A DNA stretch of 64,000 nt from Coptis chinensis (lineage: Eukaryota > Streptophyta > Magnoliopsida > Ranunculales > Ranunculaceae). Under the pieces are notes generated by a model that was given only the letters and a program-made list of their open reading frames with translations, made no database searches and was not told the DNA's origin. Positions 1 to 60,200 of the stretch are shown here, one piece after another (within the stretch, counting starts at the first letter, position 1; each line of letters begins with the position of its first letter). The DNA lies in NCBI GenBank assembly GCA_015680905.1, contig CM027380.1, positions 15,208,001 to 15,272,000 of the forward strand, in the 5' to 3' direction. The position numbers and the translations under genes were made by a program.

Positions 1-84
1 GATTAAATTGTAGAAGGCATGCTCAGCAATATTGCTGGATTTTTCTGGCAGGAATCACTTCAGTCTTGTAGTTCTATTTTGCAG

Positions 85-8080: not shown

Positions 8081-8184
8081 CTTTAAAATTAAGCAGGTAC
8101 ATTTATTTATTATTATTATTATTTTATCAGCATCAGTATATATCTATATGAGGCATGTGCTGATACTTGTACATTGTTTTAAGC

Positions 8185-18768: not shown

Positions 18769-18830
18769 CTTGGTTCAGTATCTCTGTGTTGCACATTGGC
18801 TTCTTCTAGATCTCCAACAAGCTCTTTGGT

Positions 18831-28917: not shown

Positions 28918-29175
28918 TGTTGACGTGTGTAAAGTCCCACAATGTCATAAGTGTGGACACTTATTGTATTATTTAGTAGTTGTTGTTTTGGTGTGTAAGG
29001 AAAATTTATCACCCAAGTTAGGTTCAGTATAAATATATGAACCGATGGGTAGAGTCACATACTTTCTAACCTTTATCCTTCTTGCGCCTCCATCCTTTTT
29101 TCTTTTTCACCTTATCTCCTAACCCTAACTAGCTAATCTCTAATTATTATATGACTCTCTTAGCATCAACTAACA
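28918..29175 (+). repeat. 5' LTR of Copia fossil 1
   Basis: This 258-bp block starts TGTTGACGTG and ends CAACTAACA. It is followed at once by the initiator-tRNA-Met type primer-binding site. Its partner is the split 3' LTR at 40458-40533 and 47964-48108. Confidence 0.88.
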
Positions 29176-31016
29176 TGGTATCAGGAGCCAACTCTATCTG
29201 GAGAATGTTAGGAGAGAGATCCGAAGTGTCAAAGTTCCAATTTTAGTATTTTTATAATCAGTTTTAGTATTGTATCTTAATATTGTTTTTTTTCAAGAAT
29301 CTCTTTGTCTTCAAGTATTTTTTTCAAAGGTTTGAAGTGATATAGGGGGGCACGCCCTCCAAATTGCCTTCATATAGGGGCACACGCCCTCTTCAAACCT
29401 ATATAGTGAGTAATTTTTTTTTTTACAATGACTAAAGTTGTTCCAAAAATCGATGAATTCGGTAATACACATGTTTTCTTTGTTGGTATGACATCTGTTA
29501 AATTGGAGGGTGGTACCAATTACCTACAATGTACAGAAGTAGTTACAATTTACCTTACTGGCAAAGGTAAAGAAAGTCATCTGACAGATTCTCCAGTCAC
29601 AGATGAGAAAGTAAAGGCAACCTGGATGAAAGATATATAATTTTATGTGGAACACTATGGAGAAGGATGTTTGTAATATTGTCCATTTTTTAAAACCTCT
29701 AAGGAGATTTGGGAGTATCTATAAGAATCATATTCTCAATCTCAGAATATTTCACGTATCTTTTAGTTGTATAAAAACATTTTTGATCTAACTTAATGAG
29801 ATATGTCTATTTATGAGTATTATAATTCTCTTTGTAGTAAGTGGGAATAACTAAATATTTATCACCCACTGACTACAGAGATCAATCAGTTGAAGAAACA
29901 AGCAGAGGATTTTCGAGTATCTAATTTCCTATATGGTCTACATCCCGAGTTTGCTAATGTGATGGCCCAAGTTCAAGCTGAATCAAAACTCCCTACTCCG
30001 TCTGAAGCTTATTCTCATCTTTCTCGTATACTGCACCCCCTAGCCTCCAAGGCACAGTGACAGTGTGACTTTATTGATCCCTCAAAGCAACAATAATTAT
30101 AATAACTCCTCCTAGGGTCATGGTAATAGAGGTAGAGGGGGTAGAGCCAGTCGTGGGCGTGGAGGTGGCCGGTCATAGCTAAGGGAGTGGACGTGGATGT
30201 GGTCGTGGTATGGGTGGTTTTGCTCATTGTGAGCATTGTGGGTGCACAAATCACAGTTCTAATTTTTGTTGGGATATAATAGGATGCCTACCTTGGCATA
30301 AAGCCAACAATGCCACAGTATTTGATCACAAAGACACCGACTTTTAGGAAGTTCAAGAAGATCTTGCAGCCTTGATAAAAAGGATACAAAGCTATTCCAG
30401 TTAGTTCATCGAGTTTATCAAGCACATGCACCCACTGCAACCTTAGCTTATTCAGGTAAAACATATTTTCATACAAGTGGTAACAACTATTGGGTCATTG
30501 ACTCAGGAGCTTCTGATCATATGACAAGTAATCCCCAATTGTTTTATAATATTGAGTATACTTAATAAACCATCATATGTCATATTAGCAAATGGGGCTA
30601 AGGCTGGTATTCTTGGTCGGGGTACTATTCAGTTAACTCGTCATGTATCACTTGTCTCTGTTTTGCTTATTCAAGATTTTCCGTTTAATCTATTGTTTGT
30701 TCATCGTCTCACCCAATCTCTTAACTGCAATGCCATATTTTTCTCCACTCACATTATGTTTCAGGATCTGCAGACAAAGACACTAGTTGGTGGGTGGTAT
30801 GAGCATGGCAGCATCTATTACTTTCAAGATGGCTATGAGCACTCTCACCAGAAATAGGCCTTCACAATTTCAGTCTCTCCTATTCAATGTCATAGGCGAC
30901 TTGGTCATCTAGCTTCCTCTAAGCAATTTGTGTTGTTTAGTTCCTAGTATTCCTTCCATTATTCAGTCTTTAAGTTGTGAAGTTTGTGATAAGTTAGCTA
31001 AGCATCGTTGTGCTAC

Positions 31017-32629
31017 TGATAAGTGCTCAAAAAGTGCAATTTAACCCTCGATTATGTCTCTTGTTTAGCTATCTTAATGGACTAATAGTGTTTGTAAGTT
31101 ATGTTTTATGATTCTACAGGTGAAAAAGAGAGTTTTGTGAAATATTAGAGAGAAAGGGATAAAACGGAGCATTAAGGATCACGTGGGAAGCCCGTGGACA
31201 ATCATGGAGAAGGCCAATGAATTGAAGCTATTAAAGATGTGACTTAGACCTATTTTAAAGCCTATTTGGAAGCCCAAGACAAAAGGATTCGATGCAAAAG
31301 AGGATAGAAGGATAGAGCAAAAGAGGCAAAATAGACTTTCGTGTTTGGGACGCACCCCCGTTTGGGATGCAAGGATCGTGCGTCCAAATGCAATGCTCGG
31401 GTCTGAGACGCAAGGATCGTGCGTCCAGACGCATGAAACGACAATGTAGCCACTTCCTTCTCAGTTTTGGAGATGAAGTTGGACTCTGAAAGAAGTTGAT
31501 TTGTATTAGGAAACAAATGACGGTTTGGAATGCTTCTAGAACTCATTGTAACCCCTATAAATAGAGGACCTAAGTGCCTCATGTAATTTGCCAATTCACT
31601 TATATTCTTGTCTCCAGAACTTGAGGCAGAGAGAGATTAATAATAAAATATTCGGTTTTAACTAGTCGAGTCTTAATAAGTCAGTCTTTCTAGTCTTATG
31701 TTCTTCGACTCTTCTTCTTCTCGTTCTTCTTCTTGTTCTTCGTGTTCTTCTTTCTTTATGGAAGGCTAATCTTCTCCTTCAAGGGATGAGATGAAGCCGA
31801 TGCTTAAGGTTTAATGATTCTTCTGGTTCATGGTGTTCTTCAATCAGATTAGTTATTTATGTTTTTAGTTATTAGTTCTATTGCCCACACCAGGGGATGG
31901 AAGTATAGAATAGGGTTTATGTTTTGCAATATTAATATCATACTAGTGTTCTTTACTTTTCTTTAAGTAGTATAGTTCTTTAGAGTTAGGGAAGTATTCT
32001 TTGTGTTGCCTTAGAAGGGGTAGCTCAAGGAGTGGCTGCCTAGGGGAAGTATTCTTTGTGTTTGCCTTAAATGGTGATTCATTAAATGACCACCCTATTA
32101 GGAAGTACTCCTTGATGTTGCTCTCGGTAATACATTGAATGGCTACCCGAGTTTACATAAAAGGAAAGAAGATATTAATAGCATAAACATAGGAACAACC
32201 TTAAGTAGAGTTAATTGTTAATGATGTTTCGTCCACGAGGACATCGACACTCGCTCGATTGCCTAATTGTAGTCTACTTGTAAGAACAACCATGAAGCAA
32301 AAGGTCATAGATCAAAAGTATTAGTGGATTCTAATCTCTTGAATTCTCTCTCTTATAAATTCTCAATAGTTTAGTTAATTTAGTTTAGTTTAGCATTAGA
32401 ATCTAAAATCTTTACAATCATAATTTTTAATCCCTCAAACCCCCTTTCCAGTCCTGTCTTTCACATAACATACATTTAAAAGTGGAACGATACCCTACTC
32501 ATTCTTTACTTATTGAGGGATAATTAGGTTTTGATACGTTTTTATTTTGTTTAACGACCATCATCCATTTACATCATCTATCTACATCATCCATATACCA
32601 TCTCATACACACAAAAGAAGCGCGTGTCA
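31017..32629 (+). mobile_element. Solo LTR, 1.6 kb, inserted in Copia fossil 1
   Basis: It begins TGATAAGTGCTCAAAAAGTG and ends GCGCGTGTCA. Both sides carry the exact 5-bp duplication GCTAC (31012-31016 and 32630-32634), and the interrupted integrase region of the host element resumes directly after it. A TATA box (TATAAATAG, about 31558) marks a promoter in plus orientation. No internal coding region is present, so it is a solo LTR left by LTR-LTR recombination. The length suggests a Gypsy or long-LTR Copia family; the family was not assigned. Confidence 0.85.
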
Positions 32630-33474
32630 GCTACTTACAAAAATAGGTTGAATAAGTGTTCTAGTGCTCTTTTTCAGTTAGTTCATTAAGATGTTTGGGG
32701 TCCTTGTAGAACCACTCGCTTTTTTGGAGCCAAGTACTTATTACATTTATAGATGATTTCTCTCGTGTTTGTTGGGTATATATTATGGAAAATCATTCTT
32801 AAGTATTCTTTGTCTTAAAAAAATTATATGCTGAGATTACTAATCAGTATTTTGCAAACTTGCATATTTTTTGAACTGATAATGCCAAAAATTATGACTC
32901 TACCTTATTCAAGTATTTTTAAGATGACCATGTCATTACACATCAAACCTCATATGTGCACACACCACAACAAAATAGGGTTGCTGAGAGAAAGAACATA
33001 CCCATTCTTGAAATTGCCCAAAGTTTAATGTTTCAAACAAATCTTCCAAAGTTAATGTATCAAACAAATCTCCCAAAGTTTTATTGGGTAGAGACAGTCT
33101 TTAGTGCCACATAATTGATTATTGTATGTCCTCTTCAGTATTAGGTGGCCAAACACCACACTCTGTCCTTTTCCCTGGTCAACCATCTTTTCATCTCCCT
33201 CATTGTATTTTTGGCTGTGTTTGTTTTATTCATAATCTTCAATCTAGTCGTGATAAATTGGACTCTCGTGCTATTAATTAAGTGTGTCTTCCTTGGGTAT
33301 TCACGTACGCAGAAAGGGAAGGAACAAGTACTAGTTATAGTCCTCATCTACGTAAATCCTTTGTTTGTGCTGATGTGACATTTTTTGAGGATGTCCTATT
33401 TTACTCTTCAGAGGGGGGAGGTGTCTACTAAGCCCTTTAAGGACTGTGTTTTGTCTCCTAGTATACTTTTAACC

Positions 33475-33895
33475 AGGGCCCAAAATATCGCCGAGATATC
33501 GATATCTCGCCGATATATCTCGGTAAATTGGTACACCGATATCGATTTTTCCGAGATATATCCACCGAATATTGAACCCCTTTTTTTCCGAGATATATCG
33601 GAATTTCCGATATGAAAGTTTATATCGCCCGAGATAATCGATATTTCGAGATAATCGATATATATCGGTTGACTTTTGACCAATTGTTAATAATTTAATA
33701 TTGAAATTTCGAAATATCCTATATATCAGATATATCGGCGAGAGATCCGAGATATCCGAGATATATCGGTGAGATATCCGATATTTTAGAAACTTTGGAC
33801 TGGTCACCAAAAGAACCGAGATATCCGATATATCCGATATATCTCGGTTTTTGGGTACACCGATATATTAACCGATATCGAAATTTTGGGCCTTG
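33475..33895. mobile_element. GATATATCGG palindrome-rich MITE, copy B (uninterrupted)
   Basis: 421 bp flanked by the exact 9-bp duplication CTTTTAACC (33466-33474 and 33896-33904). The ends AGGGCCCAAAATATCG and the complement of CAAGGCCCAAAATTTCG form inverted repeats. The body consists largely of CGATATATCGG and CGAGATATC palindromes. It inserted into Copia fossil 1 between the integrase and reverse transcriptase regions. It supplies the empty-site reference for the hAT insertion in copy A. Confidence 0.87.
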
Positions 33896-35993
33896 CTTTT
33901 AACCACTCCAATGTTAGACGAGGGTGTTGTTGACCTTCCAGAGACTGTTGGTATTACTGAAGGTGTTGTTCCAGACGATGTTGTTCCCGAAGATAGTGCT
34001 CCAACAACAGATTTCTAGAGCTCAAGGAAGAGGGGCATGAGCCGCGCTCCTCGCAGAAGCATTTTAGGAAGGGCATGCACGACATGCATGTTTACCCTTG
34101 AATGACGTCTGTTCAACTGCTCCGCTGCCCCCTCCTTTTCCCACTATGTCTGTGGATCCTGCTGTCACTCCCAATGATCTCAATGTTCCTATTGCCCTAA
34201 GGAAACTTGAACGTCTTCCTGACAGTATGCGTTGTCTTAGTAAGTATGCTCAATATTTTATTTCTTAGTATATTTCCCATGATCATTTACCACCATCTGT
34301 CCAGTCCTTTGCTACATCCTTGTTGTCTGTCTTTGCCATTTTTAACTACAGGGACACTTTATCCCATCCTGGCTAGAAGCAAGCAATGGAAGAGGAGTTG
34401 AGTGCCTTGTATTCTAATGAGACTTGGGTCCTTGTAGATCTTCCCCCTGGGAAGAAAGTAGTTGTTTGTAAGTGGGTTTTCACTGTTAAGCATAATCCAT
34501 ATGGTATTGTTTCTCGTTTAAAAGCTCACCTTGTTGTTAAAGGCTTTACCCAGACTTATGGTATTGATTACTCTGAGACTTTTTCTCCTGTTGCCAAGTT
34601 AGCCTCTGTGCGTATTGTTATTTCTATTGTTGTTCATCATCACTAGCCTCTGTACCAATTAGATGTGAAGAACGCATTTTTGCATGGTGATCTCCTAGAA
34701 GAAATTTATATGGTACAACCTCCTGGTTTTGTTGCTCAAGAGGGGAAAATCTGTCTAGTACAGATTTTATGGGCTCAATAAGTCTCCTAGAGCTTGGTTT
34801 GCAAAGTTTAGTCATGTTTTGATGGATAATGGAATGATTATGTGTTAATATGATCACTCTGTGTTTTATGAAAAGACCAAGTAATGAATTAGTATCTTAG
34901 TTGTGTATGTATATGGTATATCATTGTCACAAGTTCTTACCAACAAGGTATTGTACGCTCGACTTAAAGTTAATCTCTCAAAGCATTTCCAAACCAAAGA
35001 TCTCGGAGAATTGAAGTATTTATTAGGCATTGAAGTCACAAGGTATCCTGGTGAAATTCATCTTTCACAGAGGAAGTATGTATTGGACCTACTCAATGAG
35101 ATAGGTAATTTAGGAGCTCGCTCAGTAGAGACTTTGTCACACCCCAAATTTCCAGACAATATTTAAAACAATGATATTCAATCATCTGGAAACCCAGGGT
35201 GAAACAAAACTCAATACCCTGTTATCAAACACGATATAAAAAAAACTGAAATCAAAATAAAACTAAAAGGAACAACTCTTCATCACATTATTAAACTACA
35301 AAGAACTAACCAACTCTATTACATCTGTTTCAAAATAAAATCGTACACTTCAGAAAAACTTAAACCAGAAGACTCCAAGAGCAACTCCAAATCACGTGTC
35401 TTCGTCTATTGCACTCCACCATCTATGTTTCCAAGAACACACACATGTTGCAAGACAAAGCAAACATGGGTCAGCAAATTGAATTTGTTGGTATGAGTAA
35501 GACTAAAAAAAATATAAAATAGTATAGCAGTATGTTAAATCTTTCAAATCAAGAAATATACTATTACAATCCTTTCAACTTGGAAGACAATTTAGTTTCG
35601 TATTCTCAAAACGGCATGCAATTTCTTCCTAAGTAAGATTTCAACCCCCAATATACATTTCCAATAAATCTCATATAACAGTATCCATCATTCTCACTTT
35701 CCAAAATAACTCACAATATAATTTTCACTTACATTGCACTTATTATATTATATACGAATATAATAACTTATTTAAATATGAGTTTGATACACTTTACCTT
35801 TAAGCTAGAACGTCGTCTTAGGGTAGGATAACGTCTCTGCATAAAAAGTTAATAAGTCCTACCCTCCTGCAAAACAAAGTTAGATTTTCCAAACGTAATC
35901 ATTTATAATATACATCTATTTCACTCTCACTGCAACCATCATGGGTATATATAATCTGATATAATATATCGCCAATATTAACATTCTTGTCAC

Positions 35994-36128
35994 ACCACCA
36001 TATCCATTATATCATAATATATCACCAATATTAACTAACATTCATATCCCACCACCATATCCATCATATCATAATATATCACAAATATTAACTAATATTC
36101 ATATCACACCACCATATCCATCATATCA
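35994..36128. repeat. 57-bp tandem repeat, about 2.4 units
   Basis: Units start with ACCACCATATCCAT at 35994, 36051 and 36108 and continue with ATATCATAATATATCAC and AATATTAACTAA. The spacing is exactly 57 both times. It lies inside the 4.6-kb LTR-like block. Confidence 0.85.
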
Positions 36129-37481
36129 CGCTAACCATATTCACATTCCTTCGTAAGAAATTATATGCATTATATCATAATATATCACAAATCATGTCCA
36201 ACAACTCGCTCATACTTAAAGCCAATATTTTTTTTTAAAAAACACTCGTCTACTTATGAGAACGAGGAAATATATCACAACTAGAGAGTACATTCATCCC
36301 TCGTGAGTATTAACTCACACAAACCACGTATACATTTCTCATAAGAAATCATGTACATCATAATACATAAATATTCATATGCAATAACTCAGTCACACGT
36401 AAAATCAATATTTTACTTTGCTTATTAATTATCTCGTTGACTTATTTATAAAAGACACAGCCCAACCTTTAGTTTATACTCCACGATTTGCACTACACAC
36501 ATTTGCCAAATCACACATATCCGTGTGCCTCACTTACACCGAGTATCACTACAAGACATATGTCCCAAATGGGGATATCGCCTCTAGGAAACATATTTTC
36601 ATCTTGTAAACTCGTAACTTGTGAGTCACAGCCATCTCTGGGCTTTCCATACACATACACAAAGCCTCTTTTAGGCATAACAAAATATCAGGTTATTCAT
36701 GACACATTCAATGAATACCTTGGGTCATTCCCGCAACATTCAAAGAATACCCATCATAACATTAACAGTTCATTCATGTCACATTCAATGAATACATTGG
36801 GTCATTCCTGCCACATTCAAGAAATACTCATACATACATTCCCGTACACTCAAGGAATACAACCCACCCGCAAGGCGAATGCCTTAGTTCCTCTCTAAGA
36901 CGGCTTTTCACATGACATCATTAGTCATAAATATTTCTTTTCATCAAAGAGGCGTGGAGAGATCTAAATATGTGGGTGACGCATTAAATTTTCACCGGAC
37001 ACTTTTACACCGGATTTTAACACTCAAAAGTTCTCATTTATTATAATATTTTAATTACAAAACAAACATCGTCTCAAATAATAATTCATTACTAAAGATT
37101 TCAAACACAATAATTAATCAACTCACCTCATTATCAATTATATAAATCATAGATATCAAAAGGTTCAATCAAGAATAACGTATTAGTTAAATGTCTCATG
37201 AATACATTTTAAACAACCACAATCACGTACACAATTAAATACTAATATTTTTCACATATAGTTATCACAATAACTAATAACTAATAACTAATAACTAATA
37301 TATAATATAGTGGCTGCATTTTTGCTCAAAGCTGCTTACGTATCCAAATCTTTCAAGATTGGAATCAAGTCTTCGTAGTTCTTATCAGCCCCATAGTCAA
37401 AGTCAAAGAACAATAAGAATTCATGCTTTACAGTTGCACACTTCATTTCCTTTTCATTCCTCAATTATATATTTATATATA

Positions 37482-37516
<35 letters not shown>

Positions 37517-37789
37517 CAAAACTTTAATGTAACATGTCACGTGAGATAACATAAATCTATATTAACATTAATTTAGTATATATACAACAATTATACTTGG
37601 AATATAATACAAATGTGAAATTAAACAATCAAGATTCAAGACACTCATATGTCTAAATAAAATCATTTATCTCATTGCAATAATAAAAGTTAACTAGAGC
37701 TCCCCTAAAAAGAAAACATGGCAGGTTATCTAGGTAACTTGCCAAAACAATAACGTTTCCTATAGCCATCCAAATGATACACCACTTGA

Positions 37790-38600
37790 TTATTTGAAAA
37801 CTAGGATAGATATACTTACTTTTTTATGTAGAACTCGAAGTCCCAACCTCAACCCATCGAGAAGAAAACTTAGGTTGAAAATGGTAAAAATCCTAATTTT
37901 CAGCAAACTAGAATTCTGACGCATTATTTTCCGGAGACCCCAACTCTTTCCACAGGTGTCCAAACGTGACAAGGCTTTTTGATTTGAAAAGAAAACTCTC
38001 AGAACTTACTCATTTATGTTTTACAAAAATACTCAATCTCATTCTAAATGTGCCAAAATTAGGCTTGAACACAGTGCACAAAAACTGATTTCCGACGCAC
38101 TGTTTTCTGTCAGTCAAACTTCCAGACGTCATAATTAATTCCACGGGTCTTTGAATGAGATGAGGCCAATTGGGATAGAAAGAAGACTTCCATATCTTAC
38201 TCTTTTATGTTTTATAAGAATTCTAACTCTCACCCTAACTATTTTAAAACTGGACTTGAACACAGTGCGCAGAAACTGATTTCTAACACATTGTTTTATG
38301 TCAACCAAACTTCAAGACATTATATCTATCTCCACAGACCTTGGAATGTGACGAGGCCAATTGGGTTGGAAAGAAAACTCAGAAAACTCACTTTTTCATG
38401 TTTTGGAAAGAGTTTGAATCTGACTCTAACTATGTGAAAACTTGATTCCAAACCAGACATAGACCGGATTTGTGCAATCAGAAAAGTTTGACATGCCAAC
38501 TTCCGAAGGGTGTAAGTCCTTCTACATAAACCGAAATGCTATGGGGCTTTTTGAGTTTGAAAAAGGGCTGATAACACTTACTTAAAGTTCTTTAAATAAA
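37790..38600. repeat. 190-bp tandem array, about 3.5-4 degenerate units
   Basis: Successive units share the landmarks TTACTCATTTATGTTTTA, CTTGAACACAGTGC, AAACTGATTTC and GATGAGGCCAATTGGG, spaced about 190 bp apart (for example 38009, 38199 and about 38386). A weaker unit precedes them near 37816. Units differ by perhaps one base in five to ten, so the array is old. It lies in the 4.6-kb LTR-like block and has no open frame of note. Confidence 0.8.
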
Positions 38601-41600
38601 ACCAAAATCAATCTCTAAACACACTGAAATTCGTCTCCAAATCAGACAAAATTCATAACATGAACATGAGCAAAACACACCAGTTTTGCAACAAAGTGTA
38701 CACCTATATATGAGTACTTATCTAATTTAATAGAAGAGTTCATTGCTCAGGTAAGACCTTTATACTAAAAGAAAATCAAGAGATAAGTTTAAAACCAATG
38801 TGGAGGTTAGGCTTATAGCCTTGTATAAGTCTAACTTGTAGGTTCATTCAAAACCGATATATATAAAGGTTACACTAAATCTGACACTAATAGTTTTGTA
38901 TAATTATTAAATGGGTAACAAGTTAAGGGTGTATCATACCTCCTGTATAATCAAAACCGTACCCTTTCTAGAGTTTCATTATAAATCCATCCATAGACGT
39001 CATGTGTCATAACTTCTTATATTTTGAATATTCAACTCCACAATTTCAAATAACCAATTCTTAGCAATGCAAATAAAATCAACCAATATAATACAAAGTC
39101 TAACCACCAGGTAAGCATATCAATACATATACACATAAATTTAGCCAACATGATACCAGCGTGGAATACCCACATTAATTTCTACCCGTGAAAACCATAT
39201 CAAGAAATACTCACACCATTTGTTATAATCACTACTTTGTGACTATCACAAGAACAAAACCTAAGTGCGAATGTATCTGAATAAGAAATAAATAAAAATA
39301 AACCACTCACTAATGTAGTTAATTAATGTGAAAATCTAACTAAGTTAGGTCCACTCACCTCTGTTGTGTTTACGAGCGGCGTGAAGGAATAAAAACTTGA
39401 GAACGAATAACGCCTCGTAACAATCATCAGAAAGCAATCATAATAATCTTCGTCATTCTCTTATTTTTCCACTGTGTAAAACTCTCTCTCTCTCTCTCTC
39501 TCTCCCTGTTTAAAACTCTCCGTATAAACTCTTGTGTAAAACCTTTTTTTTTTCAAAAACCCCTTAAAAATAGGGAATGGGGTTTATCCTCTTTACCTTA
39601 TCTCTTTCTAATCTTTATCCTTTTTATTTTTATCTATTATTATTATTATTATTATTTAACTTTATATATATTTAATTAAAAAGGAGAATAAAAATAGGGG
39701 TGTTATAGACTCCTATGGATTCGAACAACAAACTCCAGTCAGATGTGAGAGAGTTGTATTCCGATGTTGAGAGATATCGTAGACTGGTGGGAAAACTGAT
39801 TTATGCTACTATCACTCGCCATATATCCTTTTGTTGTTAGTGTAGTATCTTAGCACCACAGATTCCTCACTACCAAGCTGTTATTCGTATTGTGTGGTAT
39901 TTGAAAGGTTTTCCAAGTCGTGGATTGATATATCATTCTAATAGATATTTTGATGTTGTTGGATATGCATATGTTGATTATGCAGGATCTATCTTAGATA
40001 GACAATCCACCACTGGGTATTGTACCTTCTTTGGTAGCAATTTGGTGACTTGTAAAAGTAAAAAGCAAACAATTATGGCAAAATCTAGTGTAAATGTTGA
40101 GTATAGAGCTATGGTTTAGGGTACTAGTGAGTTAGTGTGGATTCGTAATTTGTTACATGCATGATATGAGTTGGGTTTTGTAGTACAACTACCTATACCA
40201 CTTCATTGTGACAATCAGGCAGCCATCCATATTGCCTCTAATATAGTATTTTGATCATGAGCAAACTAAGCACATATAGGTGGATTGTCATTATGTCCGA
40301 CATAAAGTTGAAACAAATAAAGGAGATTAGTACTCTTTACGTGGCGTCTAATAATCAGTTAGCTGATATCTTCACCAAACTAGTGTTTCGTCCAGTCTTG
40401 AATTATATTTGTAACAAGCTGGGCATAAGTGATATCTATGCTCCAGTTTGAAGGGGGTGTTGACGTATGTAGAGTCCCACAATGTTGTAAGTATTGACAC
40501 GTATTTAATAGTTGTTGTTTTGGTGTATGAGCATGTTGTCCCCAAAAAACTATGGAGCATACCACCCCAATGCAATAGAAGCGAACAACCAATATCAAAC
40601 GCGGTAGAAGCAACAACCCACAACTACGGTGTATGAAATCAATTAAATAACTCCTAAACAATGTAAACTACTCACCAATTCAAACAAACAACCAAGAGAA
40701 GAGAGACAAAAATTTACGTGGTTTAGCTTGCACCTAATCCAATCCACAACCAAATAGAGAAATTTCCAATAGAGAGTATTCAAAAGAGTACAATAAACTC
40801 TCACCTTGATTCCAAAGAATCCCCAAAGCTTCCCAAGAAGAAACTCACAAATCTCTATTTGTCTCTCCTCACAACAATGTTATCTCAACTCTACAACTTT
40901 CAATGGTGTAGACAACTACCAAAGAGTTTGGGCATAAACAAATGAAGAGAAGACTCAAGTCTTTCTTTTTCCAAAACTCTCTCAAGAGAGGCACCAAATC
41001 CCAAACCCTAGCAACCAATTTTTGTCTCACACTTCTCTCTTCTAAACCCTAACTTTGTTTTAAAGTGTAGCTTAAATTTCAGTGGGTTCATTTTGGCAAC
41101 TCACTACACCATAATAGGATATTTGCAACACGCACCTTTTTTGCTTTGCAACGGTTATTTACCGTTAGTAAATTGCCAACACTATATAAGCGTTGGAAAT
41201 GTTGTAAAGCGTTACTTTATTTCATTAAATTTCTGGAATTAATTGCTAACGCTTGAAAATCGTTTGAGAAGTGTTACAAATCCAAAAAACCGAAACAACA
41301 TCGAAATTTCAAAAAGAAATAAACAAAAAAGAAATCGTGGTCGGTATATAGAAAACCTCTCATTCTCTCTCACAGCCGCTAGGTTAGGGTTTTGTTATCT
41401 TTGTTCCTCTTTCTCTCCTTCAACCCCTCCTCCTCTTCCCCAGAACAATCACTTCCTACCTTCTTCTTCCTTTTCTAATTACCAACAAATGGATTGGGTT
41501 GAAACCAAAGCTTTCAAAACCCGTTTTTAGCCTGAGATGTTTGCTTTGAAAACAACAACAACGACCCAACAAGTTTGAGGCCCATCTTCTTGTTTTTGCA

Positions 41601-41989
41601 GCTATTTGTGTTGGGTTTCTTGGTCTCTCTAACTTAAGAAGTATATTTTTTTTTCTGTAAATCTACTGCTGTGTGTTTGAGCTTCACGTTCTTAAACGCA
41701 AATAGTCATAATAACTTCTACTCTGTACTCATACTTTTATTGCTTTCGTAAGTAATGCATTATCTTAATGGAATTTTAATCCCTTAGTTAATGGTGAAGA
41801 ATAAGAAGTTAAGTGTCCGGTCCGATCTTATCTTGTGCTTAAATGTTGGCATCTCGGGTGCGGGTTTATTTAGAAATCCCCGATGGTGGAAACTTGGCGT
41901 AAAACAATTCATTCTAAGATGATTCTCAAGTCTTAATCTCAATCCTCTATCATACTTCTGTTTCGTAAAAGGACAGCTTAGCGAAAAAA

Positions 41990-42190
41990 TTGTTGGTTGG
42001 AGGAGAGTGGATAAGAGTACTTATAAATGGCTTCTCTATTGATTCTTTGATAAAGTTAATTCCTGATTCAGATGTTTTTTCTTGGCAGGGAGTTCCTTAT
42101 GTTATATATTGGAAGGATTCGTTGTCATGTTATGCAGCTTGCCATTTTCGTGAGGCATTAATGTTAGTGGTTCAGAAGTACTACATTTAA
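41990..42190 (+). pseudogene. Captured fragment of an unidentified host gene
   Basis: An open stretch reads ...LIKLIPDSDVFSWQ then GVPYVIYWKDSLSCYAACHF. A good splice acceptor (TTTTTTCTTGGCAG) lies at about 42076-42089, just before GVPYVIYW, so this looks like part of a captured exon. The string reminds me of the conserved C-terminal region of plant FAM91-like proteins, but that is memory without a check. It lies in the same CACTA element as the two firmer fragments and on the same strand. Confidence 0.4.
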
Positions 42191-42356
42191 CTGTTATGAA
42201 AAATGCATCTTGGATGGTGGGGATAGCTAGTTAAATGTGTATCTGTTCTATGTCTAATTACTTAAAACTTGCGCCTAGGGTTGATACTTGTCACATGTTT
42301 GATCAACACTTGTGGTAATCAATCATTTTATGAATCTTGGCTATCAAAAATAAAAG

Positions 42357-43297
42357 GAAGTTTTGCGTTTCTTGAAGTGAATGACGGGTCCTGTCAGACT
42401 AGTCTTCAAGTTATTGTTAATTCTTCTGTTACTTGTCTATCCACTCTCGCGGCAGGTCGGCACTTGCGTTTATGTTGAGGGTGTTTTGACGAAAACTCCT
42501 CAAGGTACTAAACAGAAAGTTGAATTAAAAGTCGACAAGCTTTTTCATGTTGGTCCCGTCGATTCGGCTACTTACCCGATTCCCAAAACCAAACTCACTC
42601 TTGAACGGCTTAGAGATTTTGTTCATATGAGGCCAAGGACTAACACCGTAATTTTTTTTTTTTTTATATACTATACTGTATGATTTATATTATTTATTTA
42701 TCTTGTGTTTTTGGGGTTCATATTTCTGCAGTTGCTCGAATAAGGAATGCACTGGCTTATGCAACTCACACATTTTTTCAGATGCACAACTTATATGTGC
42801 ACACTCCGATTATTACTACTAGTGATTGTGAGGGTGCCGGAGAGATGTTTCAAGTTACAACATTATTTAGTGATGCAGATAAGGTGGACAAGGAGCTGAA
42901 ACAGAAACCGCCTCCATCTGAAGGCGATATAGAAGCCGCAAAAACTTTGTCTCGGAGAAAGGAGAGGTCAAATCTGCTAAAGCCAAAAGGAAGATATAAC
43001 TGATTTGGTGGACTGAGTTAAAGAAGGCCAATGCAAGGATGATCTGACACATCTAGAAGAAAAATTTAAACTCAAACCCGCCTCCCGAGAAGGATGGGAA
43101 GATTGATTATACTCGTGATTTTTTCGCTTGGCAAGCATTTTTAGCGATTCGGCCGACTCGAGGTTGAGACATTTGCTTGTGCTCTTAGCAATGTTTATAC
43201 ATTTGGACCAACTTTTCGAGCTGAACATTCTCACACATCAAGGCATCTCACAGAATTTTGGATGGTAGAGCCTGAGATAGCATTTGCAGATTTAGAG
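42357..43297 (+). pseudogene. Captured asparaginyl-tRNA synthetase fragment
   Basis: The segment matches cytosolic plant AsnRS (class II; charges tRNA-Asn). Recognisable pieces in order are FAFLEVNDGS in the anticodon-binding domain (about 42361), [33 protein letters not shown] followed by a GT donor (42648), [37 protein letters not shown], and finally [17 protein letters not shown] to [10 protein letters not shown] with donor GTATGA at 43298. An intron of about 70 bp (42648-42719) is retained. The piece starts inside the gene and stops before the C-terminal catalytic motif. The frame changes at least twice (near 42460 and in the linker around 42950-43130), so no synthetase can be made. It is a gene fragment inside a transposon. 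Confidence 0.88.
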
Positions 43298-44002
43298 GTA
43301 TGAGATGTTATTTTACGTCATTTCAATTGTACCAACATAAAACTGACCAAAGATTACACTCCAGCTTTATAAAATGTTCATGATATACAACAACATGTGC
43401 ATACACACATTAGAACACACACTGGTTGAACCTCCAAAAATATGTTTGTATCAAACATAGTCAGACATTCATGTAGTCCACTGTTCACAGAATCAGAATA
43501 AAAATTGTCTCATGATCTCCCTTCTCCCTAGATTAACCTTATTTTTTTTTTTATCCGTGTGCGATTAGGGTGTTTCTATGACAGGTCATATTTTGTATTT
43601 CTTTTAACTATTTTCTTTGTAGGGGATATCGTGTACATGAGTGTTTACTGGACCTCTAACTTTAATCTCCAACTAATTTTTGATATCTATTGAACTTTTT
43701 TTCAATCTTTTTTGTTTAATCTCTTGTTATTTTTATTCTCGGATCTGGGTGCACAGCAACGTGTTTTTAGTTCTGTTTGATTAAACATTGTTTCTTTGTA
43801 ACTTCAGATACATTTTTAACAAGTTCTTCAGTTATTTGTTTATATCAAGAAGATGTCATCCAAAATTCATAGGTTAAAGTCTACTTTGAAAGTGCATTTC
43901 TAAGAGCAGTTGCAATGTGCTCTTGGCAACGGAGTGTGGCTCAGTGTGGCAGGCTGAAAGGTGTACTGTTGTGTTCTGAGTTATGGCTGATGAGAGTTGA
44001 AA

Positions 44003-44707
44003 CATGCTCTTAAAGCTTCTTCTTAGTTGGCTGCAAAAGAAGGTCCTTACGAGACGTACCAAGGGTGCCCTGTGAGCAAGGTATGTAACTAGAGGGTTGT
44101 AACTTCTTTTGTGCATTTCTGTTTCCTTTGGGAGGAAGAATACACAATCCCCTCTCATTTGAATAAGGATAAAAGATGTGGCTTGAGTTGTCTGTTAATA
44201 AATCATTCGTTGTGCATGTAATAAGGATTTTATAATTTTTGGACTATAGGGGATTCTTCAACCAGACATGTGGGGTGTAGTACCATCAGATAGGTGGGAT
44301 TGGTCAGCTCTCAAGTCACTGATCAGCAAGAATGGAGGGAGAAATTCTCTTCTTGTAGCTCCTATGTCGACTGCTTCAACTAGCCAAATACTTGGCAACA
44401 ATGAGTGCTTTGAGCCGTATACCTCTAATATATACAGCCGTAGAGTTTTAAGGTAAACTATTATCATTGTTATGATAATAATATATATTTTTGTATGATT
44501 ATTTTTAAGATTTCAAAAGTTATGTACTATGCAACCTTATCCCCATTTTTTATTTATTACTGGTGAATTTGTTGTGGTGAACAAAGACCTTCATGACTTA
44601 GTTGAGATGGGTCTGTGGTCTCCTGCTCTGAAAAACAAGATAATTTATGAAAATGGATCGGTTCTTACAGTCGTAGAGATTCTCGATGACTTGAAAGCCA
44701 TTTACAG
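44003..44707 (+). pseudogene. RNR1: Captured ribonucleotide reductase large-subunit fragment
   Basis: It matches the plant ribonucleoside-diphosphate reductase large subunit, which makes dNDPs. Three exon pieces are kept with introns between them: 44003-44080 (HALKASS, a stop, then LAAKEGPYETYQGCPVSK), 44250-44452 ([53 protein letters not shown]) and 44561-44707 (GEFVVVNKDLHDLVEMGLW to DDLKAIY). The piece includes the [10 protein letters not shown] region with the active-site Cys and Glu of the family. The first exon has a stop where functional genes have an acidic residue. The acceptor before 44561 reads AC instead of AG, and one Leu codon is missing after VVVNKDL. It covers a small internal part of the gene, so it is non-functional. 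Confidence 0.9.
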
Positions 44708-47338
44708 GTATAACTGGGAAGTTCACATTATTTTATGATGGCGGAAAAATGAAGAAAGAACTTTTGCCCAAGAGTTGTATACTTGTTCAGTGATGAATTT
44801 TTCTAGTTTATATTATTTATCTTTCATTTCACGAAGACAAAGTGCGAACAAAAATACGGTTCAGTTATAAATATTTTTAGAATTAGTTAGGTTTTGATTA
44901 TATATGAGTTATCATTTGTCGTAAGATCAATTGAATATATTGTTACTCATTTTCTAATTAGAGAAAAGATGTAATTTTTTATTCTTTTATAATCAGAAGT
45001 GTTTCAAGTTCAATTTGTTTAATTGCTTATTATTATTATTTTTTAATATATTTTTCTTTGGAAAATGATTTGTTCAGGTTCATGAAAAGGAAAAATGGAT
45101 AAGTTCATATATTTGTTTCTATATGTAACCTGTCATTTGTGCTGGTTATGGGTGTATGGGGCAGGAAAAAAAAAATATATTTTTTTACCCTATCAACACA
45201 TTAGTAACGGTTGTAAACCGTTGCAAAGCAAAAATAAGTATTAAAGCATCTATTAATAATAGTTACAAATCAAACTACGCAACGCTTTTTAACCGTTAGT
45301 AATTGTTACTTTGCAACGGTTAATAACCGTTGGAAAATTTGGTTTGCAACGCTTTGTAAACGTTAGTAATTGTGACTCTGCAACGCTTTTTAATCGTTGG
45401 AAAATTTGATTTGCAACGCTTTTTAACCGTTGCAAATATTTCCAACACTTTGCCCACGCCCAATTTGCAACGCTTAAAAAGCATTGCGAAAATTATTCGC
45501 AACGCTTTTTTGCCGTTGCAAATGGCCTATTATGGTGTAGTGTGATTGCCAAAATATCAAGGCCCATTAGGCCAATCCCAACAATCCTCCACCTTGGTGA
45601 GAATTTCTCAAATTCGAGCCGACCAATCCGTTACACCAAACCAAACTGACCAAAGTGCTACACCCGACCAACCAACAAACATCAAAGAGAGAACCAACCA
45701 ATCCAACTATCAATGTCCCTAAGGACCCAACAATGACTGCACCACGAAGTGGTTACCTACGTACTTGGTAAAGGGATCAAGCCTTCGTAGTTCTTCCATA
45801 CCCCCAAAAAAGGGGTCAATCAACAATCATTGTCCATATCAATGCCCGGAAGGGCGTGAGTCCCTCAAGGGATCACCAACAAACTTTAACACAAAGGGGT
45901 CAAAAGTACCAAATATCATCTCCACTTCCATGCATCAACTAGAGAAGTTCCAATACCATCTCTCGGATCATGAGATGTTTTTATTCCATCTCTAGGATTT
46001 GGAGATATTCCAATACCCCGAAACCTCGTATGGTTTCCAACAACAACAAGTGGCTTCGCAGCTACAGTATACTCATGGACTTGAGTATTTTCAACGACAA
46101 CAATGATTTTTTTTTTCACTAGCTGCGTACCTAACCAATTTCTCATAACAAGGAGTGGCATCAATCTCCACCTCTTCCGATATCTTTTCCACATCCGAAT
46201 CAAAATGCTCAAATGAAACAATCTTCTATTTCTTTCCAAAGCCACAACTTTTCCTCCTAGTAGCTTTTCCAATAACCGAACAACAAGGAGAATGATCATC
46301 ACTTGCCCCAACCATACTTCTATTTAGGAAGTATAAGCTCTCTCATCGTGTGCCTCTCATTACCACACGTGCACCAGCAACAACCTTTAGAGTTCCATCA
46401 GATAAAATAATTTTCAACCCACAAGACTCTAAAACACTCAATGAGATGAGATTATTTTTCAAATCAAGAATATACCTTACATTAACCAAATTTCTAATTG
46501 TTCCATATTCTAACTTCAACCGAATTGTTCTAACTCCACCAATTTTGCAAATATGGCCATTGCCTAACAAAATATCACCATCTAACTCCTGAAAGTTAGC
46601 AAACCAATCCCTATTGGGACACATATGGTAGGAGCAACCTGAATCCAAAATCCACTATGACGTGGAGCAACCAATAGAAGATGTAACCGACAATGACAAA
46701 GTTTCAACCACAATCTCATCTTTACAACAACGTGCACGATTCAATTTTTTCTTTAATTTGGAGCACTTATTTTCTAATGTCCCCAACGACGACAATATGC
46801 ACATTCATTATTCACAAGAGCTCTTCTACTTCTCGACTTCTGCCTAGAACCAACCAAACTACCAGTGTTCAAATAGAGGCGGTCCTCTACATTCCTTCCC
46901 AAGTACTTGTCTTCCAATGTCTTGAACATATCCTTCGTAAAGGTTTCCAAAATGACATAGTACTTTCATGTTCAACATCTCCCAAACGTCTACTTTCATA
47001 TCTCTTGGCTTATCGCCAAGAGCATCATCCAAACTATTTACGGTTAACAAATCAACAACCTCCATTTTCCACATATCAAAGTCGATGTTCCAATCTAAAC
47101 TCTCGATATCAACCATTACAATAGGAGTCCCAACCATAGAATTTGACATAATTGTCACATTCTCAATTTCCATAACACCCAAACACTAACAACCAAAGAA
47201 ACACCCTCTTAGAAATTTCTTCAAACACTACCAATGCGGAAACAACTAATGAAACCAAAATATTTGATTTCAATCAAACTTCTACCACAAACAAACACCA
47301 ACTATGCCAAGGTAGAACCTTTGGCTCTGATACCAATT

Positions 47339-47958
47339 TGTTGTGCTTTAAAAACTATAGAGCACACCAACCTAATGCAACGAAAGCGAACAACTAATAT
47401 CAAACGTGGTAGAAGTAACAATCCACAACTACGGTGTATGAAATCAACTAAATAACTCCTAAACAATATAATAAACAATGTAAACTACTCACCAATTCAA
47501 ACAAACAACCAAGAGAAGAGAGACAAAGATTTACGTGGTTTAGCTTGCGCCTAATCCATAACCAAATAGAGAAATTTTCAATAGAGAGAATATTCAAAAT
47601 AGTACAATAAACTCTCACCTTGATTCTAAAGAATCCCCAAAGTTTCCCAAGAAGAAACTCACAAATCTCTATTTGTCTCTCCTCACAACAATGTTCTCTC
47701 AACTTTACAACTTTACAACTTTCAATGGTGTAGACAACTACCAAAGAGTTTGAACATAAACAAATGAAAACTCAAGCCTTTCTTCTTCTAAAGCTCTCTT
47801 AAGAGATGCACTAAATCTCAAATCCTAGCAACCAATTTTTGTCTCACACTTCTTTCTTCTAAACCCTAACTTTGTTTTAAAGTGTAGTTTAAATTTCGGT
47901 AGATTCATTTCGGCAAATAGTTGCCAAAATATCAAGGCCTATTAGTCCCATCCCAACA
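47339..47958 (-). repeat. 5' LTR of Copia fossil 2
   Basis: A 620-bp LTR, TGTTG at the left edge and CCAACA at the right edge as written on the plus strand. It aligns over its length with 40534-41101 joined to 45543-45583. The adjoining primer-binding site lies two bases to its left. Confidence 0.88.
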
Positions 47959-48108
47959 GAGCAAAACTTATCATCCAAGTTAGGTTTAGCATAAGTTACG
48001 TAACCTTTATTTTTCTTGTGCCTCCGTCCTTTTTTTTCTTTACATTATCTCCTAACCCTAACTAGCTAATCTCTAATGACTATATGACTCTCTTAGTATC
48101 AACTAACA

Positions 48109-54540: not shown

Positions 54541-54668
54541 TATATGTTCATTTCTCTTAGTGCAAGTGTGCAACTTCATGCAATCAAGGTACTCATTAGA
54601 TCAGCATTCTTACTTCACTTTGTTTGTAGAGTGAACAGCGTGAGAAACTAGGGAGTGTGGTACGAAAC

Positions 54669-55978
54669 ATGGAGTTCAATGAGCATGGATTCTTGGAGGA
54701 GTTGTTATCACTAAGAAGAGAGAACTTAGAAACTTTTCCTAATGGAATAATGAGTGACCAGTTGTTCGGTAATGACTGGAGTTTGGATTGTGTGAATCGG
54801 AATTTTGATGGGATTATACCGAATTCATCGTTCGAAGGGTTCAATGTATCGGTTGAGCCTAGTTTCAATTGTTCCTTAAATGATAATGTACACTATCCAT
54901 TTGAAGATGGATACTTGTTACCAGAAATGAATTCATTATATCAAAAGAGAGATACACTTCCATTTCCATTTCCATTTCAAGAAGATATTCCATTGGTTAC
55001 GGAGTATGAAGAACAATGTCTACTGAAAGATGAATCTCACAATTTGGAGGAGAAGGGGACTATATGTAAAGTAGAGTCAACTCAAGCTATTGAAACTCCA
55101 ACTTTTAGTATGGGAGTATGTCTTGATAGAAAGAACAAGAACAAGAAAGTGGAAGGGCAGCCTTCAAAGAATTTAATGGCAGAGAGAAGGCGAAGAAAGC
55201 GGTTGAATGATCGTCTTTCGATGCTTCGATCAGTGGTTCCAAGGATTAGCAAGGTAACCAACTGCATATACTTGTTATATCATCAGAAATTTGTCATTCC
55301 CATATGGCTACATTATCTGTGTTTTTTCTATATAAAAGTATGGTGAGTCATGAAATTTGTTCTTACAGATGGACAGAACATCTATACTTGGAGATACCAT
55401 TGAATACGTGAAAGAACTTCTAGAGAAAATCAAGAATCTGCAAGATGAGATTGAAGTTGGTTCAAATCAATTGAACTTAGGTGCAATCTTGAAGGATTTA
55501 AGAACAAATGAGATCCTAGTGAGAAATACACCAAAGGTAAGGTTTATGTTTGATAGCTATAAATGACTCAGAGAACTGTCTTAATTTGTCCATCAAGAGT
55601 TTTTCTAACATTACCAATTTGCAGTTTGATGTAGAAAGGAGGAATATGGATACTCGAGTTGAGATTTGCTGCTCCTCGAAACCGGGTTTGTTGCTCTCTA
55701 CTCTGAGCACCCTTGAAGCATTTGGCCTTGAGATTCAACAATGTGTTATAAGTTGTTTCAATGATTTTGCATTGCAAGCTTCATGCTCTGAGGTATAAAA
55801 CTAAAGAGAGTATTCATCTTATGTTCACTTTAGATGCCATCAGCGTAATATATTCAAGGCCACTGATTACAAATTGATTCTATACTAACAGGGGTTAGAG
55901 AAAAGAGGAATAGTCAGTTCTGAAGAGATTAAAGAAGCATTATTCAGAAATTCAGGTTATGGAGGGAAGTGTCAGTAG
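54669..55978 (+). CDS. BHLH93: bHLH transcription factor, bHLH93/bHLH61 type, 4 exons
   Basis: Exons: 54669-55253, 55369-55536, 55625-55792 and 55892-55978. The predicted protein has 335 residues and is intact. The acidic, variable N-terminus (MEFNEHGFLEELLSLRRENL) is followed by the basic helix-loop-helix at about residues 163-215. It contains EGQPSKNLMAERRRRKRLND, LSMLRSVVPRISK at the end of exon 1, then MDRTSILGDTIEYVKELL at the start of exon 2. The basic region keeps the Glu and Arg residues expected for E-box DNA binding. Exons 3 and 4 encode an ACT-like C-terminal domain (DTRVEICCSSKPGLLLSTLS, IQQCVISCFNDFALQASCSE) and the family's ending EEIKEALFRNSGYGG. Arabidopsis bHLH93 has the same layout and is linked to flowering under short days. 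An in-frame GTG 12 bases upstream was not used, since plants start at ATG. Confidence 0.95.
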
Positions 55979-56442: not shown

Positions 56443-56633
56443 CTATATACTGTCAAGGTTTTTATTTATTTATTTTCTGATCAAGCCTACGAGTAAGTCA
56501 TTAAAAATTTAACATCAGGTTTTATACTTGTGTAATATTTACATCATTCCTTTAAAAAGGGGAACCAACTTCACCCTGAAAAGTGAAAACACAGTATTTG
56601 GAAGGGAAACGACCTTTAGGTTGTGCTCGGCTT
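55979..56633. other. 3' flank of the bHLH gene
   Basis: It holds the 3' UTR of the bHLH gene (AT-rich, several AATAA-like strings near 56080-56100) and then unique-looking DNA with a long T run, listed separately. The last five bases, GGCTT, are the target duplication of the following Copia element. No gene was seen. Confidence 0.5.
56397..56442. repeat. Homopolymer run of 46 T
   Basis: An uninterrupted T run of about 46 bases between the bHLH gene and the next Copia element. The sequence to its left (about 56270-56396) is A-rich. It could be the tail of a minus-strand retroposed sequence, slippage, or an assembly artefact; no SINE or LINE homology was recognised. Confidence 0.9.
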
Positions 56634-57287
56634 TGTCGGGAATTATACCAATACCAATCGATTCTCCCACTACACAGATAACTCATATATGGAAACAATT
56701 CAACTCCGGACAAAATCTAAATATCAACTACAGCCTATACTAATATGCCCAACTTGCTAAACAACTATCAACAACAAATAATAATGCAAAGCAGTAAAAG
56801 CAAACCACAACACAAAGATTTACCGTGGTTCGGCCAATGATACCTACTTCCACAAGAGTCAGTTCTTTATAAAGTGGGAAGGAAGATTACAATATCTCTT
56901 TTCAGTCTCTCACCTTACTAGATCACTCTTATCTCTTTACAGGGTTGTATCTCTGTAAAGGTTATCTCTCAATCTTGATAGCTTTCAAGATTGGTTTCTC
57001 TCTCTTTGTTTTTGTCTGATTCTTAGTCTTAGGTTTTCCAAAACCTTGATTTTGTTTTTATATCAAAAAACCAAATTTCGCGGTTACTGTAGAGAGGCCC
57101 ACGAAAATCAGAACCGAGACACGAGCGCACGTGCGCCCAAAATACTGTAATGCTTCCACGGCAAGAGTGTAGGTCACGCCCAAAACAATTTGGAATGATT
57201 TTCACGACGCGACGCAAGCAAGCTTTCGACATATTCACCTTGAGAATCAGCTCCGTTTCTCTCCTCATGTGAGGGATAACTCCAACA
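56634..57287 (-). repeat. 3' LTR of Copia fossil 3
   Basis: 654 bp, starting TGTCGGGAATTATACC and ending GATAACTCCAACA on the plus strand. It aligns with 61527-62203. A stretch around 57078-57150 differs much more than the rest, perhaps through recombination with a related element. Confidence 0.9.
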
Positions 57288-60200
57288 ATCTCCCCCTCCC
57301 AAACAGTGAGGGGGGATACCTCCATGCAATTTCCAAATCAATAGGAGGAGTCTGCTACCATTCCGGTGGTAGCACATCAAATATCAAACTTACCTTTCGG
57401 TAAGACTTTGGTCATCATATCCGACCCGTTCTTGTCGGTATGGATATTCTCGATACACAAATGCTTGTCTTCGAGTACTTCTCTAATCCAATGATAACAC
57501 ACGTGTATGTGCTTGGATCTAGAATGAAAATTCGGATTCTTGCTCAAGTGGATGGGGCTCTGACTGTCACATAGAACTACAAACTGTTTCTACTTTAGCC
57601 CTAGTTCGTCGAAGAACCTCTTCATCCATAGCATCTCTTTGAAACACTCAGTGGTTGCAATATACTCGGCTTCTGTAGTGGAGAGGGCAACACACTTTTG
57701 CAACTTAGATTGCCAAGAAACTGCTCCCCCTGCAAAAGTAACTAGATAACCGGAGGTGGACTTCATCGAGTTAACATCACCTGCCATGTCTGCATCAGTG
57801 TAGCCTTCAAGTAAGGGCTTACTTCCACCAAAGCACAAACACGATTTGGAAGTGCCCTTGAGATATCTCAATATCCACTTAACACCTTCCCAATGCTCCT
57901 GACCACCCGGATTTGATAGAAATCGGCTTACAACACCAACGACGAAAGCAATATCCGGTCTTGTACACACCATGACATACATTAAGCTGCCCATTACGGA
58001 TGCATAAGGAATCTTTTCCATCTGACTCTGCTCATGCTCACCTTTTGGACACATCTCTTTGGTCATGCGGAACTGGCCACCAAGCTAACAACTGACTGGC
58101 TTCGCTTGATCCATGTTGAATCTCTTCAACACCTTCTCAATGTAGCTTTCTTGAAAGCCACAACTTCCATTCTTTCTATCACGAAAGTGATCCATTATCC
58201 CAAGTATCTACTTTGCTTGACCCAAATCCTTCATCTCAAAAGACTTACTCAAGTCTTTCTTCAGCTTGGATATCTTGTTGATGTTTGGGCCAACTATCAA
58301 CTGATCAACATATCATCCACATACAACAATAGCACTATGAAATCCCCATATGGAAATCTCTGAACAAACGCACAATGATCGGAAGCAGACAAGCTCTTTA
58401 TCCTTGCTTCGCCATAAAGGAGTCAAACTTTATGTACCACTGTCTTGGTGCTTGCTTCAACCCATACAAGCTCTTTATCAGCTTGCATACTAGGTGCTCC
58501 TTGCCTTTGACCTCAAACCCCTCTGGCTGGTCCATGTAGACATCTTCTTCAAGGTCTCCATGAAGAAAAGCTGTCTTAACATCTAGCTGCTCAACCTCTA
58601 GGTTCATACTTGCGGCCATACCCAATACCACCCAGATAGAAGTCATCTTCACTACAGGAGAGAAAATCTCATCAAAGTCAATCCCTTTCCTTTGACCGAA
58701 TCCCTTCACAACACAACAAGGCGAGCTTTGTGCCTTGGGTGAGGATTGTTCTCCTCATGCTTAACTTTGTATATCCACTTATTCTTAAGAACTTTTCTCC
58801 CTGTGGGTTTCTCAACTAACTCATAAGTGTGATTCTTATGCAAAGAATCCATCTCGTCATGCATGGCCTTCAAGCACTTTTCTTTGTCTGTACCTTCAAG
58901 TGCCTCTTGATAGTACATAGGTTCTCCACCATCCGATAGTAGCACGTACGTATGTGGTGGTGGATACTGGTTGAAGCTAGTCTCCCTCCTGTCGGACCTC
59001 CTTGCCCCATCTGGCCGGTGCCTCAGGAGGATGCACTTCTGCTTGCTCTGGTGGTGGTTCATGCATCTCATCTGCATCTTCTATACCAATAGGTTCTATC
59101 CCATCATGAGCAATATGATTCTCATCTTGAGCTTCAAACTCATGGTTCTTTGCATTCTCAATGCCTTCTGCACGTTTCACAGTAGGAAATTCTGGTTCTG
59201 AATCAACAAGATCATTGGTGAAAGCCTGTAGCTTCTCACCCTCTTCAAAGTCTGCTATAGTTTGGTTTTCTAAGAACACAACATCTCGACTTTGGATTAC
59301 TCTCTTGTTAATCGGATCATAGAGTTTGTAACCAAACTTTTCATCTCCACAACCCAGAAAAATGCACTGCTTGGCTTTGTCATCAAGCTTGGATCTCTCA
59401 TCCTTCGGAATATGCACAAATGCCCTGCACCCAAATACCCTCAAGTATCCATAATCAACATCTCTGCCTGACCATACTCTCTCTGGATAATTACTATTAA
59501 GAGTCTTTGTTGGCGACAGGTTGATAACATGCACGGCTGTACGCATTGCTTCTACCCAGTAGCTTCTAGGTAGCTTAGAGTGAGATAGCATGCATCTCAT
59601 CCTCTCTACAATGGTACGGTTCATTCTCTCTGCTATTCCATTATGTTGCGGTGTCTTGGGAACGGTCTGCTCATGACAAATCCCATGACTCTGGCAATAC
59701 TCTTCAAATGGCCCAATATACTCACCCCCATTATCTGAGCGAATACACTTCAACAACTTCCCAGTCTCTCTTTCCACCATGCTATGGAATTTCTCAAACA
59801 CGCCAAGTACTTCATCCTTGGTCTTCAGACTATAGGCCCATATCTTTCTTGACGCATCATCAATGAATGTCAAGAAGTACGAAGCTCCCTGGTGGGATTT
59901 TACTCTCATAGGACCACATAAGTCTATGTGTTCAAGGACAATGTCCTTTCTGCGAGATGGGAATCTTTGGAAAGACACTCTGTGTTGGTTTCCTACCAAA
60001 CAATGAGTACATGTATTTAAATGTGTACCTTTAATGTCTGGCACGACCTTTTGCTTAGCAAGAACTTCCATCCCTTTTATGCCCATGTGACACAGTCTCT
60101 TGTGCCACAGTTCAGATGAAACTTCTTCTTCTGCCGCATTCGCTTTTGCTTTACACAAACTAGCCTGTGTTTTGTAAAGAGAGCAAGTTTTCTTTCCTCG

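Follow-up and report, generated by a model that had tools for sequence, protein, structure and literature searches.

Transposons of the CACTA superfamily that carry pieces of host genes have been described in several plants. In soybean, the wp allele contains Tgm-Express1, a CACTA element of 5.7 kb that contains intron and exon sequence from five genes (encoding an unknown protein, CDC2, FPK, malate dehydrogenase, and cysteine synthase) and yields spliced chimeric transcripts (PMC1947982). In Japanese morning glory, the Tpn1 family has 339 copies, transposase-bearing members are known, and its non-autonomous members keep conserved termini while host genic sequence replaces the interior (PMC5105172). 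More than 10,000 new Pack-TYPE elements, Pack-CACTAs included, have been annotated in rice and maize (PMC8903248), and a grapevine survey reported that elements of various class II superfamilies, CACTA among them, had captured pieces of genes (PMC2528002). Here, we analyzed 64,000 nucleotides of DNA from Coptis chinensis (contig CM027380.1, positions 15,208,001 to 15,272,000), hereafter the window, to whose numbering all coordinates refer. Positions 41102 to 45542 very probably hold a Pack-CACTA, a non-autonomous CACTA transposon that carries broken fragments of two or more unrelated host genes; this cargo was most likely obtained through fusion of neighboring elements. The recognized pieces derive from genes for asparaginyl-tRNA synthetase (AsnRS) and the large subunit of ribonucleotide reductase (RNR). 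The type of transposon, its cargo, and the Copia elements around it by themselves also point to a plant host.

Like Tgm-Express1, the Coptis element is of the CACTA type and combines exons and introns from several unrelated host genes, within 4.4 kb rather than 5.7 kb. Unlike it, Tgm-Express1 has five fragments, with neither AsnRS nor RNR named in the description drawn on here, and lies in an intron of an expressed gene, where splicing was shown, whereas the Coptis element lies in the long terminal repeat (LTR) of a retrotransposon (PMC1947982). Tgm-Express1 is the richer precedent. The conserved termini and replaced interior recall non-autonomous Tpn1 elements, although a single copy was seen here in place of a large family (PMC5105172). 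The Pack-CACTA and other Pack-TYPE elements of Arabidopsis, rice, and maize are likewise non-autonomous, bounded by terminal inverted repeats (TIRs), and loaded with captured coding DNA; they were annotated genome-wide as families, whereas ours is a single copy without a clean target-site duplication (TSD) (PMC8903248). Narrow searches of the open-licence literature found neither AsnRS as CACTA cargo nor the AsnRS-RNR donor pair in a CACTA context; the reductase gene mentioned in PMC8495827 goes with a Helitron insertion. A first-pass annotation of this DNA had called the donor combination undescribed as far as known; multi-gene capture by CACTA elements was already known (PMC1947982). The element is old and decaying, fits the known Pack-CACTA kind of gene-shuffling element, and changes no concept. 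What it offers is a clean, internally dated multi-gene capture, in a nest that has both empty sites within one window.

Ends, insertion site, and age

The element is bounded by CACTACACCATAATAGG, 17 bp without a mismatch at either end and in inverted orientation, and no further perfect copy exists in the window. At up to 3 mismatches, three matches were found, compared with a mean of 0.12 in 100 shuffled sequences, none of which reached three. Beyond a 2-base difference, both ends match again over ATTTGCAAC (left copy, 41121-41129). Inside the TIRs lie subterminal arrays of a 29-nucleotide unit of the form GCAACGCTTTTTAACCGTTGC, a single repeat family whose ten copies are divided between the left end (two) and the right end (eight). 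The left 250 bp contain 11 core motifs and the right 350 bp contain 28, against maxima of 3 and 4, respectively, in segments of the same sizes taken every 25 bp elsewhere in the window; given that the motif set and matrix were derived from the element itself, these counts describe confinement of the arrays to the element and are no independent test. The word GCAACG occurs 13 times on the plus strand of the window. Ten of these lie in the element, eight in the end arrays and two internally (43756 and 43926), and the internal pair failed to score as subterminal units. Arrays of this kind are bound by CACTA transposase proteins. The CACTA ends and GCAACG arrays proposed in the first-pass annotation were thus borne out, and its concern that the two ends might belong to different repeat families was answered by the TIR and subterminal units that they share.

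The element interrupts the 3' LTR of a Copia retrotransposon, and the whole 5' LTR of the same retrotransposon continues across the insertion point without it, providing an empty site. When the left and right flanks were joined, similarity to this sister LTR persisted across the insertion point up to the LTR end, restarting 2 bases from the left end of the element and 3 bases from its right end. Because the uninterrupted site is present in the sister LTR, the interval is a discrete, single-block insertion. The flanks at 41091-41101 and 45543-45553 form a short palindrome (TTTTGGCAA and TTGCCAAAA), extending the inverted symmetry beyond the element. A nearly identical palindrome is found in the sister LTR at about 47912-47929, and so this extension belongs to the target.

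The interrupted retrotransposon is bounded on both sides by GAGCA (40529-40533 and 47959-47963). It retains a Copia-type Pol_BBD domain (Pfam, E 6.5e-26) in an interior of only about 1.75 kb and so is an internally deleted Copia relative. By eye, we saw what we take to be a purine-rich tract adjoining the 3' LTR and a primer-binding-like site, TGGTATCAGAGCC, adjoining the 5' LTR. In a self-comparison of the window, 40534-41099 and 47339-47916 matched at 87%. Over 597 aligned sites, the two LTRs are separated by 40 transitions and 9 transversions (Kimura two-parameter distance, 0.088; the alignment slice started one base after 47339). At the substitution rates used for dating, 6.5e-9 to 1.3e-8 per site per year, this divergence would place the age of the retrotransposon at roughly 3.4 to 6.8 million years, which would also be a rough upper limit for insertion of the CACTA element here.

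The retrotransposon is itself an insertion. After removal of 40534-47958 and one GAGCA, a single alignment with the segment at 28918-29175 crosses the join (195 of 258 columns identical, E 1e-51). The outer plus-strand Copia element to which these segments belong has a reverse-transcriptase domain at 34377-34643 (RVT_2, E 2.2e-19). The region from 28918 to 48108 is therefore a nest of three levels: an outer Copia element, a second Copia element within one of its LTR-like segments, and the CACTA element within the 3' LTR of the second.

Captured gene fragments

To describe the interior, we scanned all six frames of the element against Pfam with stops replaced by X and E values up to 1, and we put seven exon pieces from the whole element to Pfam singly. 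Exon limits were taken from the translated frames, and splice sites were judged by eye. No transposase family was detected in any of the six frames at this threshold, and four of them had no Pfam family at all. The interior thus has the features of a Pack-CACTA, with captured host gene fragments (AsnRS and RNR large subunit) and no transposase of its own.

The AsnRS piece gave tRNA-synt_2 (E 3.3e-10) in two stretches of one plus frame. For its joined exon pieces, the one PDB sequence listed was the asparagine-tRNA ligase 6pqh (E 3.4e-17); taken one at a time, they reached Pfam E values of 0.026 and 0.078 at best (below the cut-off) or matched nothing. The matches cover residues 42 to 190 of 490 in 6pqh and Pfam positions 91 to 127 of 308, an internal part of the gene. 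The frame shifts near 42455, and the 6pqh alignment covers both sides of the shift. An intron at about 42648-42721 begins with GT (42648), and the exon restarting at 42722 (ISAVARIRN) is preceded by AT rather than AG; a restart there brings the length into line with that of the solved relative (RTNLFGAV in 6pqh). Between about 43000 and 43160, five stops lie in frame with IEAAKTL and, further on, with the best Pfam stretch. The piece ends in FADLE, followed by a donor-like GT at 43298. It is reminiscent of the Arabidopsis paralogue SYNC2/NS2 (AT3G07420), a resemblance that would suggest two further frame changes after 43000.

The RNR piece gave Ribonuc_red_lgC (E 5.1e-21) in another plus frame. 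Among its exon pieces taken singly, one had a strong Pfam match (1.5e-23) and another reached 0.17. Joined, they matched PDB sequences at 2.6e-55 at best, and 23 of the 24 listed sequences are named RNR, the other being a PIT54 protein. Coverage of residues 539 to 681 in the 792-residue chain 3hnc_A again marks an internal part of the gene. The piece reads HALKASS from 44003, then an in-frame stop, then LAAKEGPYETYQG, and it is one codon shorter than the two solved chains shown. Its first intron (44081-44249) retains GT..AG. The second (44453-44560) begins with GT, and AC stands in place of AG before the exon that resumes at 44561. A donor-like GT follows the end of the piece at 44707. Both plus-strand assignments made earlier, AsnRS at 42357-43297 and RNR at 44003-44707, hold against these matches, and the RNR limits are also consistent with the reading frames.

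Two further parts of the interior are less distinct. The exon-like frame GVPYVIYWKDSLSCYAACHFREALMLVVQ matched no Pfam family and had one chance-level PDB match (E 1.1). The annotation's probable third gene near 42090-42178 therefore keeps its exon-like frame but gains no recognizable donor from Pfam or PDB; a third donor gene is possible. At 41360-41500 lies a stretch that by eye we take to be a putative plant 5' leader, with a TATA-like GTATATAG, pyrimidine-rich sequence, and TAGGGTTT.

Coordinates of the features are collected in Table 1.

Table 1. Features of the nested elements and of the CACTA cargo
Feature	Position	Strand	Basis or detail
Probable non-autonomous CACTA-superfamily element with gene fragments (Pack-CACTA)	41102..45542	.	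4441 bp; TIRs, subterminal arrays, empty site in sister LTR
Left TIR, CACTACACCATAATAGG	41102..41118	+	End search
Right TIR, CACTACACCATAATAGG	45526..45542	-	End search
Left subterminal units	41144..41270	.	29-mers at 41144 and 41172; weaker at 41242 (matrix score 18.9)
Right subterminal array	45200..45523	.	Eight 29-mers, type GCAACGCTTTTTAACCGTTGC
Possible captured promoter/5' leader	41345..41500	+	By eye only; TATA-like, pyrimidine-rich, TAGGGTTT
Possible exon of third gene, GVPYVIYWKDSLSCYAACHFREALMLVVQ	42089..42175	+	Reading frame; behind GGCAG acceptor-like site
AsnRS fragment with one retained intron, OB-fold part to class II motif 2 part	42353..43297	+	Pfam, PDB, frames
RNR large-subunit fragment, three exons	44003..44707	+	Pfam, PDB, frames
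Internally deleted Copia LTR retrotransposon, interrupted by CACTA element	40534..47958	-	LTR alignments, Pol_BBD domain
Whole 5' LTR of interrupted Copia element	47339..47958	-	Alignment with 3' LTR
Empty site, GGCAAATAGTTGCC	47912-47925		In whole 5' LTR
3' LTR of interrupted Copia element	40534-41101 plus 45543-45583		Split by CACTA element
LTR-like segment of outer Copia element	28918..29175	+	Alignment across join
Partner of outer LTR-like segment	40458-40533 plus 47964-48108		Interrupted by 40534-47958

Route of capture and alternative readings

Because introns are present in both the AsnRS and the RNR pieces, capture from DNA rather than mRNA is indicated, as had been proposed together with the Pack-CACTA reading that the ends, arrays, empty site, and database matches now support. 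Each piece is internal to its gene, and the two lie about 0.7 kb apart, so two intact neighboring genes were not taken up as one untouched block. Capture would have required two or more steps, or a single step with later deletion. In the published Pack-TYPE model, neighboring insertions are mobilized jointly with the DNA between them (PMC8903248; PMC13317346). Fusion of neighboring elements with intervening host DNA is the most likely source of the cargo, and the resulting element would have moved by cut and paste with the transposase of a related autonomous element.

Several observations weigh against this picture. A clean 3-bp TSD, which is part of the definition of the CACTA superfamily (PMC8978399), was looked for by eye and by alignment at the flanks (ACT and TGA) and was not found. 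In the sister LTR, GGCAA and TTGCC are separated by 4 bases (ATAG), and in the occupied LTR by 5 (CT plus TGA), a gain of one base and not of three. The superfamily label consequently rests on the CACTA-type ends, the subterminal arrays, and the empty site; a small deletion or point decay could possibly account for the absent TSD in an LTR pair that differs at 49 of 597 sites. When the end and the first subterminal word were sought as exact matches in prokaryote and viral collections, there was no match, which is uninformative because it is expected for a plant element, and the end sequence (CACTACACCATAA) was not found in the text of the open-licence papers searched. The absent TSD would also suit two unrelated CACTA ends that happen to flank ordinary gene relics, a reading that we regard as scarcely credible: the 17-bp inverted ends are identical, the same subterminal units stand at both ends, and the sister LTR lacks the whole interval as one block, which largely refutes it. 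More room remains for the same element having gained its cargo by another route, such as repair synthesis that copied gene DNA into a gap in the element. Remnants of inner subterminal repeats, a possible trace of fusion, were not found with the ten-unit matrix (best internal score of 4.3, compared with 29.4 to 40.9 for the ten source units and 9.5 for the best site outside the element). This absence neither supports nor excludes fusion, and it is a point both against the fusion account and in favor of another route. Also in favor of another route, a 2026 review allows that there may be an undiscovered way in which unlinked gene fragments are acquired (PMC13317346). Another route has no direct evidence in this element, and fusion is supported in other genomes, where the inner ends were deleted or mutated (PMC8903248). 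We therefore treat another route as possible but short of likely, and we retain fusion as the leading account.

A different question is whether the cargo is used. The annotation had suggested that the leader-like stretch could drive a chimeric transcript, and one could imagine a spliced RNA that joins the exon-like piece at 42089-42175 to the AsnRS and RNR exons, yielding a selected fusion product or regulatory RNA. The recognized pieces all lie on the plus strand with the leader-like stretch upstream, one intron keeps GT..AG, and the fragments of Tgm-Express1 do enter chimeric transcripts by splicing (PMC1947982). However, RNR contains an in-frame stop, AsnRS has the frame change near 42455 and five stops between its later stretches, and two of the three internal introns apparently lack a 3' AG, a loss read from the point at which the frame resumes. 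The stops, the frame change, and the lost acceptors make a working chimeric protein unlikely and weaken the suggested transcript. We consider an expressed chimeric gene improbable. Less probable still is that the leader would act as a working promoter for an AsnRS-RNR RNA giving small RNAs against both essential donor genes, which, if true, would tie translation and the supply of DNA precursors to one transposon. From its letters, the cargo of the Pack-CACTA appears instead to have decayed without visible coding constraint.

Other features of the window

Elsewhere in the window, mostly collinear matches at 70 to 84% identity between 66-5918 and 12741-18777 suggest a tandem duplication; the order is broken by one additional match at 69%. 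Directly before the second block of this putative duplication, 12177-12386 matches Pfam Amidase (E 1.5e-13), presumably from a gene resembling that for fatty-acid amide hydrolase. A dispersed repeat is found at 8177-8405 and 33467-33692 (81% identity), and the minus frame at 33469-33867 contains short repeats of the type ISDISDIS. On the plus strand, 54630-55343 holds a bHLH transcription factor exon (HLH, E 1.1e-05). A further Copia element lies on the minus strand at 56633-62203, with LTR-like direct repeats at 56633-57287 and 61526-62203 (88%) and a coding part spread over several frames.

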